Below, piece by piece: positions 43,801 to 47,404 of a DNA stretch of 64,000 nucleotides. Within the stretch, counting starts at the first letter, position 1, and each line of letters begins with the position of its first letter. The stretch lies in NCBI GenBank assembly GCA_025655595.1, contig JAHXIO010000001.1, positions 124,001 to 188,000 on the forward strand. Direction: 5' to 3'. The notes beneath the pieces were generated by a model. That model did not search any database. It saw only the letters and a list, made by a program, of their open reading frames with translations, and was not told the DNA's origin. The position numbers and the translations under genes were made by a program. This DNA is from Candidatus Thiodiazotropha sp. (ex Monitilora ramsayi). Lineage in GTDB: Bacteria > Pseudomonadota > Gammaproteobacteria > Chromatiales > Chromatiaceae.

Positions 43801-46503
43801 ATGTCATCAAAACCCCCATTCATTCTGGTCGATGGTTCCTCCTATCTGTTCCGTGCCTATCATGCGCTGCCCGATCTGAGTAACTCCCGGGGGGAGCCTA
43901 CCGGCGCTATCGTCGGGGTACTGAATATGCTCAGACGATTGCTCAATGAGTATGAGCCTGAACATATTGCTGTCATTTTCGATGCGCCGGGAGGCAGCTT
44001 CAGAAACGAACTCTATGAGGCGTACAAAGCCAATCGTCCCCCAATGCCGGAGGACCTTCGGATACAAATTGCACCTCTACACGAAATCATCCAGGCCATG
44101 GGTCTGCCGCTTGTGATGGTGGAAGGGGTGGAGGCGGACGACGTTATCGGCACCCTGGCCAGACAGGCCAAGGAGCAGGGTATGGATACACTGATTTCCA
44201 CTGGCGACAAGGACATGGCGCAACTGGTCAATCAGCATGTCAGCCTGGTCAATACCATGTCGGAGACATTTACCGATCAGGCGGGTGTGGAGGAGAAGTT
44301 CGGCGTTAAACCCTCGCAGATCATCGACTATCTGGCCCTGATGGGGGACTCGGTGGACAACATACCGGGGGTGCCCAAGTGCGGTCCCAAGACCGCCGCC
44401 AAGTGGCTGCAGGCCTATGGCGATCTGGACAACCTGATGGCTCATGCGGACGAGATAAAGGGCAAGATCGGTGAAAACCTGAGGGCCAGCCTCGACTTCC
44501 TGCCACTCTCAAGGGAGTTGGCCACCATCAAACTCGATGTCCCGCTGGACAAGGGGCCGGCAGACTATCGACCTAGCGATCCCGACATCGATGTACTCAG
44601 GGAGCAGTACACTCGTATGGAGTCGAACCGATTCTTGGCGACTTTGGAAAGTGGCGTTGAGCCTTCCGCCGAAGCCCAGCCTGAGCCGGTTGAAACGGCA
44701 TATGAGTCGGTTCTTGATGAGGAGCTATTCAACCGCTGGCTCGAGCGGCTTGAGCAGGCACCGCTATTTGCCTTCGATACGGAGACCACCAGCCTTGACT
44801 ATATGTCGGCGGAGTTGGTGGGACTCTCCTTCGCAGTAGAGCCGGGGGAGGCCGCATACGTACCCTTGGCCCATGACTATCCGGGGGCGCCTGACCAGCT
44901 CTCCCGCGATTGGGTTCTGGACCGGCTGAAACCCTTGTTGCAGAATGCGAACCGCAAAAAGGTCGGGCAGAATCTTAAATACGATATGAGCGTACTGGCC
45001 AGGTACGATATCGAGTTATGCGGTGTCGCCTTCGATACCATGCTGGAATCCTATGTGCTCGACTCAACTGCAACCCGGCATGATATGGACTCCCTGGCAA
45101 AGACCTACCTGCAGCAGGAGACCATCCACTTCGAGGATATCGCCGGAAAGGGTAAGAAGCAGCTGACCTTCAACCAGATAGACCTGGAGCAGGCGGGTCC
45201 CTACGCCGCGGAGGATGCGGATATCACCCTGCGTCTACACCAGGCACTGTGGCCCAGGCTGGAGGCGGAGCCCTCTCTGTCCGAGCTGTTTGCGGCGGTG
45301 GAGATCCCGCTGGTGCCGGTACTTTCACGGATCGAACGCAATGGTGTGAGGATCGACTGTGACAAGCTCAAGCAGCAGAGTGATGAGATGGCCAAGACCA
45401 TGCACGATCTTGAGCAGCAAGCCTACGAGATTGCCGGACACAGTTTCAATCTCGGCTCGCCGAAACAGATTGGCGAGATCTTTTTCAACGAGTTGAAGCT
45501 TCCGGTGATCGCCAAGACACCCAAGGGTGCCCCCTCTACGGCGGAATCGGTGTTGGTGGAGCTGGCGGAACTGGGACATGAACTGCCATCGGTGATTTTG
45601 CAGCACCGGGGCCTGTCGAAACTGAAGTCGACCTATACCGACAAATTGCCTGAGATGGTGAATCCCGACACGGGACGGGTTCACACCTCCTATCATCAGG
45701 CTGTAGCCGCCACCGGAAGGCTCTCCTCTTCCGATCCGAACCTGCAGAACATTCCGATTCGCAGCGAGGAGGGTCGTCGTATCCGACAAGCCTTCGTGCC
45801 GGAGCCGGGCTGGAAGATGGTGGCAGCCGATTACTCGCAGATCGAATTGCGCATCATGGCCCATCTGTCCGGTGACGAAGGACTGTTGCGGGCCTTCTCC
45901 GCCGGGGAGGATATCCATCGCGCCACTGCAGCGGAGGTGTTCGGAGAGTCTTTGGATCAGGTCACTTCAGAACAGCGTCGCTCCGCCAAAGCGATCAATT
46001 TCGGTCTGATCTACGGTATGTCGGCATTCGGCCTGGCCAGGCAGTTGGGTATCGAGCGGGGTGCGGCACAGGAATATGTGGATCTCTATTTCACGCGCTA
46101 TCCCGGGGTAGCTGAGTTCATGGACCGTATTCGGGAGCAGGCAAGGGAGGCGGGATATGTGGAGACCCTGTTCGGTCGTCGGCTCTATCTGCCTGATATC
46201 AAGGCTCGCAATCACCAGCGCAGAACCGCCGCTGAGCGTACGGCTATCAACGCCCCCATGCAGGGGAGTGCGGCCGATATCATCAAGCGAGCGATGCTCA
46301 AGGTGGATGGATGGATCTGCGGTGAAAAGCCGCCGGTAAGGCTGCTGATGCAAGTACACGACGAGCTGGTGCTGGAGGTAGAGAGCGGATATGTCGACCA
46401 AGCGATTCAGCATCTGCGCGACGCTATGCAGGGGGCGGCCTCACTGGATGTACCCCTGCTCGTCGATGTAGGGGTAGGGGATGACTGGGAAGCGGCCCAT
46501 TGA
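43801..46503 (+). CDS. polA: DNA polymerase I
   Basis: A 900-residue DNA polymerase I with all three domains. The 5'-3' exonuclease (residues about 1-290) has [15 protein letters not shown] and DKDMAQLVN; the 3'-5' exonuclease keeps [10 protein letters not shown] with its metal-binding Asp/Glu and [13 protein letters not shown]; the polymerase domain has [16 protein letters not shown] (motif A), [16 protein letters not shown] (motif B) and [13 protein letters not shown] (motif C). It fills gaps in repair and Okazaki processing. A small RNA candidate lies immediately downstream. Confidence 0.98.
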
Positions 46504-46623
46504 TAATTAACTTGTTGTTTTATAAGAGTTATTTGTTTTAAGGTCACAGCTGATGCGAGACGGTCAGCAATATCTGATTTTGATTTTGAACTTTCACAAC
46601 CCCCTCCAGTCTATGAATAAGTA

Positions 46624-46740
46624 AGTCGTACGACACGGGTCGCTTTCCTCCCTTTTGCGGCCCAACCTTCCCGGTCACCCCATCCGGGAAGATCCGGCCC
46701 TGTCAGTCTCTCCCCTTAGATTGACAGGGCCTTCTTTTTT
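46624..46740 (+). ncRNA. Candidate small RNA at the polA-engB locus (Spot 42/ErsA position)
   Basis: Between polA and the convergent engB, three consecutive strong hairpins end in a T tract. Hairpin 1: GGGTCGC (46637-46643) with GCGGCCC (46657-46663), 7 bp with one G-U, loop TTTCCTCCCTTTT. Hairpin 2: CTTCCCGG (46667-46674) with CCGGGAAG (46684-46691), 8 bp, C-rich loop. Hairpin 3: GGCCCTGTCA (46696-46705) with TGACAGGGCC (46722-46731), 10 bp, followed by TTCTTTTTT, a classical terminator. A possible -10 (TATGAAT, 46612) lies 12 bp upstream; the -35 is poor (TTGAAC at 46586, spacing 20). E. coli Spot 42 and Pseudomonas ErsA are encoded at this same place. The CU-rich loop of hairpin 1 is complementary to Shine-Dalgarno sequences. 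Transcript ends are estimated. Confidence 0.75.
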
Positions 46741-46792
46741 GAGCCTTGTACAGCAGCCTGCACTTTTGGGGTGCAGTGCGCCACGGTATGTT

Positions 46793-47404
46793 TTAGCCTG
46801 AAGTTTCAGGCTCCAGTTCGAACCAGATATCCAGCACCTTGTGGCACTCTTCCAGGCCTTGACGCTTGAGTGCGGAGAAAAGCTGTACCGTAATCTCCGG
46901 ATGATCGTCCAGTTCCCGCCGGACTTTCAACAGGGTCGATTTGGCAGCGCCCCTCTTCAGCTTGTCCGCCTTGGTGAGCAAAATGTGGGTCGGTAGTCCG
47001 TGGTGGGTATTCCACTGCAGCATTTGCAGATCGAACGGCTTTAGCGGATGCCGGATATCCATCAGCAGGATCAGGCCTCTTAGGCATTGGCGATGTTGCA
47101 CATAGTCAGCGAGGCTCTGCTGCCACTGCTGTTTGATGGTCTCGGCCACCTTGGCGTAGCCGTATCCCGGCAAGTCGACAAGACGGCGCTCTTCATCGAG
47201 GGTGAAGAAATTTAGCAACTGTGTACGGCCGGGTGTTTTGCTGGCGCGGGCCAGGCTCTTCTGGTCGCACAGGGCGTTGAGTGCGCTCGACTTGCCGGCG
47301 TTGGAGCGGCCGGCAAAAGCGATTTCAATGCCCTGATCAGGTGGGGATTGATTGAGACGAGCCGCACTCTTGAGAAAATGGGCGCGACGGTAGTAGGGGT
47401 TCAT
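46793..47404 (-). CDS. engB: Ribosome biogenesis GTP-binding protein YsxC/EngB
   Basis: A 203-residue TRAFAC GTPase needed for 50S subunit assembly. Motifs: G1 [10 protein letters not shown]3 [10 protein letters not shown], and G4 TKADK. The N-terminus [21 protein letters not shown] is typical. polA-(sRNA)-engB convergent order is as in E. coli and Pseudomonas. Confidence 0.96.

Follow-up and report, generated by a model that had tools for sequence, protein, structure and literature searches.

Small RNA genes have been described next to polA in several bacteria, namely sX13 in Xanthomonadaceae, ErsA in Pseudomonas, and Spot 42 in the polA-yihA gap of E. coli. sX13 is described as exclusive to Xanthomonadaceae, works independently of Hfq, and required for repression its C-rich loops as well as G-rich motifs close to the start codons; hfq is itself a target, through a GGGG motif located 9-12 bp downstream of the ATG, and this regulation was not restored by compensatory mutations (PMC3771888). 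ErsA reportedly depends strictly on sigma22, the counterpart of sigmaE (PMC7565897), and Spot 42 is carbon-controlled (PMC3771888). Two further RNAs are relevant for comparison. For biofilms of B. cenocepacia, a list of strongly expressed candidates includes an anti-hemB RNA, the family being one of Burkholderia (PMC5688073), and GsrN of Caulobacter is a sigmaT-dependent sRNA whose C-rich loop acts on a G-tract and which activates katG (PMC5869019). sX13, ErsA, and anti-hemB are Rfam entries without a clan.

In this study, we analysed a window of 64,000 nucleotides from Candidatus Thiodiazotropha sp. (ex Monitilora ramsayi), a probable clam symbiont, for a small RNA gene in the gap at 46504-46792, which is exactly the interval between polA and engB (Table 1). 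The RNA predicted there is strongly folded: the minimum free energy of 46620-46741 is -56.2 kcal/mol as compared to a mean of -30.85 for shuffled sequences (z = -7.46), and none of 200 shuffles equals it. Its third hairpin (46696-46731), directly followed by a U tail with the sequence TTCTTTTTT at 46732-46740, is the sole terminator-like site in 46400-46900, where 0.5 would be expected from shuffles. A small RNA gene in the Spot 42/ErsA gap, as proposed in the original prediction, is borne out by this fold and by its presence in all 22 genomes of the genus. The stems had been given as 7, 8, and 10 bp with the last one a terminator; the first two lengths and the terminator hold, while the third stem has 14 bp, 10 being its contiguous Watson-Crick pairs. 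Likewise, the first loop is the C/U-rich, anti-Shine-Dalgarno-like TTTCCTCCCTTTT that had been quoted, but it does not stand alone, since the loops of all three hairpins are C-rich. We regard 46588-46740 as almost certainly a real and self-contained small RNA gene, the expression of which is predicted from its sequence.

Table 1. Features of the polA-engB region (positions in the window)
Feature	Position	Strand	Remarks
polA (DNA polymerase I)	43801..46503	+	upstream neighbour; name from sequence and locus
-35 element GAACTT of sigmaE/AlgU-type promoter	46588..46593	+	identical in 22/22 genus genomes, with exact 16-nt spacer
-10 element TCTAT	46610..46614	+	6 nt ahead of predicted start; TCAGA in six of 22 genus genomes
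Predicted sRNA, ~120 nt	46621..46740	+	start inferred from promoter, end from terminator
Weak 5' mini-hairpin, 3 bp, GTCGTACGAC	46625..46634	+	from fold and genus alignment
Hairpin 1, 7 bp, loop TTTCCTCCCTTTT (46644-46656)	46637..46663	+	arms 46637-46643/46657-46663
Hairpin 2, 8 bp (CTTCCCGG/CCGGGAAG), loop TCACCCCAT (46675-46683)	46667..46691	+	arms 46667-46674/46684-46691
Hairpin 3, intrinsic terminator, 14 bp, loop CTCCCCTT (46710-46717)	46696..46740	+	arms 46696-46709/46718-46731
engB/yihA GTPase	46793..47404	-	convergent downstream neighbour; used in linkage tests

The strongest regulatory clue, missed by the original prediction, is the promoter. GAACTT-N16-TCTAT at 46588-46614, which we take for a promoter with the type of consensus recognized by sigmaE/AlgU, the envelope-stress factor, keeps its exact spacer length in all 22 genus genomes, is separated by 6 nt from a conserved GTAAG (GCAAG in two genus genomes), and in many genus genomes overlaps the polA stop codon. 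In 46400-46900, a scan for consensus promoters of the sigma70 type came out empty, with 0.4 expected by chance. Furthermore, the genome has rpoE (320 bits, over the cut-off) with a GAACTA-N16-TCAAT site upstream of it, presumably as fits an autoregulated sigmaE gene, and the ORF after rpoE, judged by eye, looks like an anti-sigma factor. Control of the RNA by a sigmaE-type factor is thus predicted from its promoter, and we consider it very probable.

A plain DNA search of 56 genomes retrieved the gap sequence from all 22 of the genus, the genome of the window among them, and from none of the remaining 34. In the genus alignment (22 sequences, 18 distinct), 99.5% of the cells of the distinct sequences are paired, a percentage reached by none of 500 shuffles, and the pairing is destroyed once the partners are slid. 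Four pairs change on both sides, a count also reached by 24 of the 500 shuffles, and the covariation score is reached by none of them. Hairpin 2 is invariant within the genus and is uninformative there for or against its pairing. The palindrome GTCGTACGAC near the 5' end, previously noted as perfect, is present in the window; its U-A pair becomes U-G in eight of the 18 distinct sequences. As a conserved 5' palindrome it was rejected, being imperfect in at least these eight, and it amounts to a 3-bp hairpin.

To relatives outside the genus we applied covariance models, with linkage determined by using the C-terminal 199 aa of polA, and likewise engB, as queries. The first model, R1, was made from genus sequences alone. 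It matched 52 of 195 genomes of the order, 30 of them outside the genus, and of the 27 non-genus matches examined, 21 have polA or engB at a distance of up to about 1.6 kb, with six elsewhere. At E<=0.05, R1 found matches in 24 of the 369 class genomes, and 19 of the 23 non-genus places are near polA or engB. One of the four unlinked places (L093) scores 72.4 bits with the broader model R2; the other three are doubtful, with R2 giving 37 bits, 27.4 bits, and no match. Two of the R1 places coincide with matches to models of described families: that in G046 (29.3 bits) with an over-cut-off Rfam match to sX13 (103 bits), and that in G340 with a sub-threshold match to the ErsA model (31.6 bits). 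R2 was made from 105 matches (alignment A2, 103 distinct), the genus of the window included, and no known sX13 or ErsA member was used in training either model.

The structure is kept among these relatives. In A2, 92.4% of the cells are paired versus 66.2% in shuffled alignments, and the covariation score is 0.559 versus 0.147, figures that lean towards pairing because the structure was used in fitting A2. When 26 sequences were aligned by MAFFT without structural information and analysed with RNAalifold, hairpins 1 and 3 were recovered, with 13 of 15 pairs changing on both sides, and hairpin 2 was not. The compensatory stem changes among relatives, to which the original prediction had tied the RNA, are present both in the genus and in A2, where each of the 29 pairs shows a two-sided change in at least one sequence. 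R2 gives 114 bits at 46621-46740 in the window, a locus that belongs to its training set, and matches 210 of the 369 class genomes at E<=0.01, with all of the matches listed at 49.9 bits or more; this bare count is an upper bound, because 47 genomes from outside the class also match at E<=0.01 in a phylum-wide scan.

When 88 loci were searched with R2, 102 matches were obtained, of which 100 are distinct and lie in 87 loci, and 79 of these (70 of the 87 loci) are near polA or engB. CCC occurs in loop 1 of 97, in loop 2 of 94, and in loop 3 of 83 of the 100 distinct matches, in at least two loops of 99 and in all three of 75, counts which partly reflect selection as the loops form part of R2. 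The promoter, on the other hand, lies outside the model. The motif GAAC[TC][TAC]-N15-17-TC, searched for in the 70 nt upstream or the first 25 nt of each match, was found for 86 of the 100, as compared to 59 of 4934 background windows of the same loci (1.2%); mononucleotide-shuffled upstream stretches of the 102 matches contain 1.9 motifs on average and at most six. The spacer is 16 nt in 72 of the 86 motif-bearing matches, and 60 of 87 motif occurrences begin 33-41 nt upstream. The window RNA combines a match to R2, linkage to polA and engB, a sigmaE-type promoter, and C-rich loops, the features by which we propose to define a polA-locus C-loop sRNA family.

Tandem copies of the RNA, two to four per locus and many with their own sigmaE-type promoter, are found at L137, L108, L136, and L128 (G367), L266 (G474), L262 (G438), L151, L224, L255, L294, L295, L281, L291, and L263; in G367 and G474, four copies are located between polA and engB. 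Other loci have the RNA inverted relative to polA with its own promoter kept (L086/L226 in G048, L221 in G481, and L327 in G283). These inverted copies in three genomes argue against the RNA being mainly the 3' end of the polA transcript, a 3' UTR released by processing and closed by a strong terminator. Such an origin would agree with the start of the RNA 118 nt past the last base of the polA stop codon and with the terminator at its end, but the promoter immediately upstream is kept in every one of the 22 genus genomes, class matches occur away from polA, and tandem copies mostly have promoters of their own. We therefore consider a 3'-UTR product highly improbable, and the RNA is treated below as the product of its own gene.

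How much can be concluded from model scores was examined in the phylum-wide scan, in which R2 matched 83 of 299 genomes, those 47 from outside the class with up to 40.5 bits. Among the loci examined, polA or engB is close by in 13 of 20 class loci as compared to none of nine from outside, one of these nine fitting a loose promoter pattern. Since non-class loci also attain 30-40 bits, the score alone is no proof of kinship, and locus and promoter decide. No link to the alphaproteobacterial ar14 RNA is claimed, the best match being 43.7 bits against a cut-off of 58.8 and none of the nine non-class R2 loci being near polA or engB. Within the window, no Rfam family reaches its gathering cut-off, weak matches only were found in the gap at E<=10 (best E 0.39), and BLAST against plasmids gave no match.

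In layout, the window RNA resembles sX13. Both are encoded directly downstream of polA, measure ~115-120 nt, and form three stable hairpins with C-rich apical loops. The Rfam sX13 model (RF02232) stays below its gathering cut-off in the window, without any match at E<=10 in 46300-47000, and gives 26-39 bits for three loci of the order (cut-off 50). In the reverse direction, R2 gives 40-43 bits for the polA-linked sX13 loci of G046, G361, and G469, the first two of which are over the Rfam cut-off while the third is assigned to sX13 by similarity. G046 also contains a further C-rich RNA, with a higher score than the polA-linked sX13 (46.4 versus 42.7 bits). The two RNAs also differ: the sX13 loops CCUCCC/CCCC/CCCC sit on stems other than those of the window RNA, and the clear sigmaE-type promoter of the latter corresponds to a weaker GAACC-type stretch at the sX13 loci, without a match to the motif. 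Based on locus together with score, the window RNA is likely to be a relative of sX13. In two genomes from the sX13-bearing family, a short RNA of two hairpins, the loops of which are of the CUCCCCUCCC type, is also encoded at a place not near polA or engB (L326 in G046 and L336 in G827).

The relation to ErsA, which likewise rests on locus and score, is more distant. ErsA shares the polA-engB gap, and its hairpins 2 and 3, with C-rich loops, align with those of the window RNA. A GAACT-type -35 element is found upstream of ErsA-type loci L107 (with polA only within the locus) and L345 (with polA and engB), and the window RNA has its sigmaE-type promoter in the same gap. In G605, the best whole-genome R2 match is the polA-engB RNA (33.8 bits, E 4.8e-6), which has GAACTA-N17-TCAGA upstream and is by eye clearly similar to the over-cut-off ErsA of G358, a genome from the same family as G605; the ErsA of G358 reached 30.2 bits when its locus was searched with R2 and was missed by whole-genome R2 scans. 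The curated score of the ErsA model (Pseudomon-1, RF01719) is not reached in the window, and L079, a relative from the order, has 29.9 bits with it (cut-off 50). In contrast to the window RNA, ErsA scores only 30-34 bits with R2, has no C-rich first hairpin, and pairs with its known targets via a U-rich single strand (PMC5819304, PMC8575079). This U-rich unstructured SL1-SL2 region is absent from the window RNA, where a linker of 3 nt and a structured C/U loop take its place. On these comparisons, ErsA is probably a relative of the window RNA, though a divergent one.

anti-hemB shares with the window RNA a CCUCCCU first hairpin and a GC-rich terminator hairpin, but its model (RF02837) is shorter (81 nt), and the middle hairpin loop of L301 and L303 is not C-rich. 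The model finds no match in the window or in the genome it belongs to. It is over its cut-off in five of 114 genomes, near polA or engB in three of the five; the over-cut-off pair not within 1.5 kb of either gene is L301 and L305. Class relatives at the same locus reach the curated score (L219 and L302-L304), and sub-threshold matches are found in many class loci. We also observed anti-hemB-type RNAs with a first hairpin nearly identical to the polA-linked ones, albeit with neither polA nor engB within 1.5 kb (L301/L346 in G304, L340, and L335); the first-hairpin sequence CCCGCTTTTCCTCCCTGAGCGGG is common to L301 and L340.

Spot 42 (RF00021) occupies the same gap in E. coli and is not known to be sigmaE-controlled. 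Its sequence and structure have no Rfam match in the window, and kinship is unsupported, as R2 gives 19.8 bits for E. coli spf versus 17-24 bits for unrelated terminators. Spot 42 does illustrate, by sharing the gap without evident similarity, how the window RNA, sX13, and ErsA could have arisen independently as C-loop sRNAs, if C-rich hairpin loops evolve repeatedly and the polA-engB gap is a hot spot for sRNA genes; the window RNA would then act like sX13 without being related to it. C-rich-loop sRNAs are indeed found in unrelated settings, as with the sub-threshold matches to ar14 and with GsrN, which resembles the window RNA in its alternative-sigma control and C-rich loop and differs in locus and sigma factor (PMC5869019). 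R2 also gives 20-40 bits in the 47 non-class genomes, away from polA and engB in the nine examined. Against such convergence, the hairpin order, the loop types, the promoter (usually with a 16-nt spacer and 33-41 nt upstream), and the location recur together in most of the 87 class loci, and R1, built from the genus only, reaches bona fide sX13 blind. We thus find an independent origin rather unlikely and favour common descent: the window RNA is probably a C-loop sRNA, predicted to be sigmaE-driven, from the same polA-engB ancestor as sX13 and, with a further degree of caution, ErsA. The view that it is merely a positional analogue is not borne out, as the polA/engB-linked RNAs across the class include sX13 and probably ErsA. 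That it looked undescribed is correct insofar as no Rfam cut-off is reached in the window, but its kin are visible, by covariance models only.

With regard to targets, the position validated for sX13 offers a candidate. The hfq gene of the same genome has GGGG at +9..+12, and loop 3 can form nine pairs with hfq +4..+12 (-14.8 kcal/mol), six of them using unpaired loop bases. Among 82 other start regions in the window, one gives a stronger duplex with loop 3, and loops 1 and 2 rank hfq 27th of 82; these start regions are those of long frames on both strands rather than of curated genes, and the folding of the RNA itself does not enter into the duplex energies. E. coli K-12 hfq has the identical GGGG at +9..+12, so that the motif may owe its conservation to the protein and is weaker as evidence of co-evolution. 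By this modelled pairing, hfq is a candidate target.

A regulon of its own, as had been suggested for the RNA, could not be shown. The 10-nt loop-1 complement next to a start codon (AAAGGGAGGA-N2-9-ATG) has eight matches in the 22 genomes and eight in the reversed control, which fits short contacts between loop and G motif better than long duplexes. The loop-3 complement (AAGGGGAG-N2-8-ATG) has 372 matches versus 115 in the reversed control and is higher in each of the 22 genomes; this excess is not taken as evidence, because AAGGGGAG resembles a ribosome-binding site. Among individual genes, a ParA-like gene (by eye; L377) has AAAGGGGAGTGTATG, complementary to loop 3, at its start, with the same string in several genus genomes, and an NrfD-like membrane protein gene (by eye; L356/L378 in G004) has TTAAGGGGAG before its start, with about 10-11 possible loop-3 pairs.

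By likeness to sX13, with its loops and 4G motifs, and to ErsA, with its sigma22 control, a mode of action can be proposed. Under envelope stress, RNA polymerase with sigmaE (RpoE) would transcribe the gene from GAACTT-N16-TCTAT, giving the ~120-nt three-hairpin RNA ended at the intrinsic terminator. Its C-rich loops would pair with G-rich stretches of mRNAs, either Shine-Dalgarno sequences or early coding 4G motifs, and translation of the targets would be lowered, coupling envelope stress to translational repression. Repression through the C-rich loops seems a fairly probable function, the whole chain being drawn from the sequence and from the studied relatives. A protein-binding decoy, sequestering for example RsmA/CsrA or Hfq, would suit the three-hairpin shape with its U tail and the presence of hfq in the genome. 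GGA is the signature of CsrA/RsmA, and no GGA is found in any loop of the window RNA, all of them being C/U-rich. sX13, moreover, acts without Hfq (PMC3771888), and a decoy rather than an antisense regulator appears very improbable.

In the open-licence literature searched, no paper was found that mentions both ErsA and sX13, or both Thiodiazotropha and small RNA, and, within the portions of it that were accessible, no prior statement of a class-wide single family. There is probably a gammaproteobacterial family of sigmaE-driven, polA-linked C-loop sRNAs, of which the window RNA is one branch and to which sX13 and, less certainly, ErsA belong.

MicA and RybB are the type of sigmaE RNAs known from enteric bacteria. 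In the widest reading, the window RNA, sX13, ErsA, and anti-hemB, the last at least in part, would be branches of one ancestral gammaproteobacterial gene in the polA-engB gap. This gene, for a sigmaE-controlled antisense RNA with three C-rich loops, would have persisted in much of the class, in places as tandem copies, to serve the envelope stress response generally at the level of translation, and hfq would be an ancient target. We regard this reading as evenly poised between right and wrong; if it is true, the family would be the counterpart, outside enterics, of the MicA/RybB-type RNAs. The present data, including a promoter type that appears to be shared in many Gammaproteobacteria, tie together the named families sX13, ErsA, and partly anti-hemB, and they lead to predictions for many organisms, i.e. 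induction by envelope stress, targeting of G motifs by C-rich loops, and perhaps repression of hfq.
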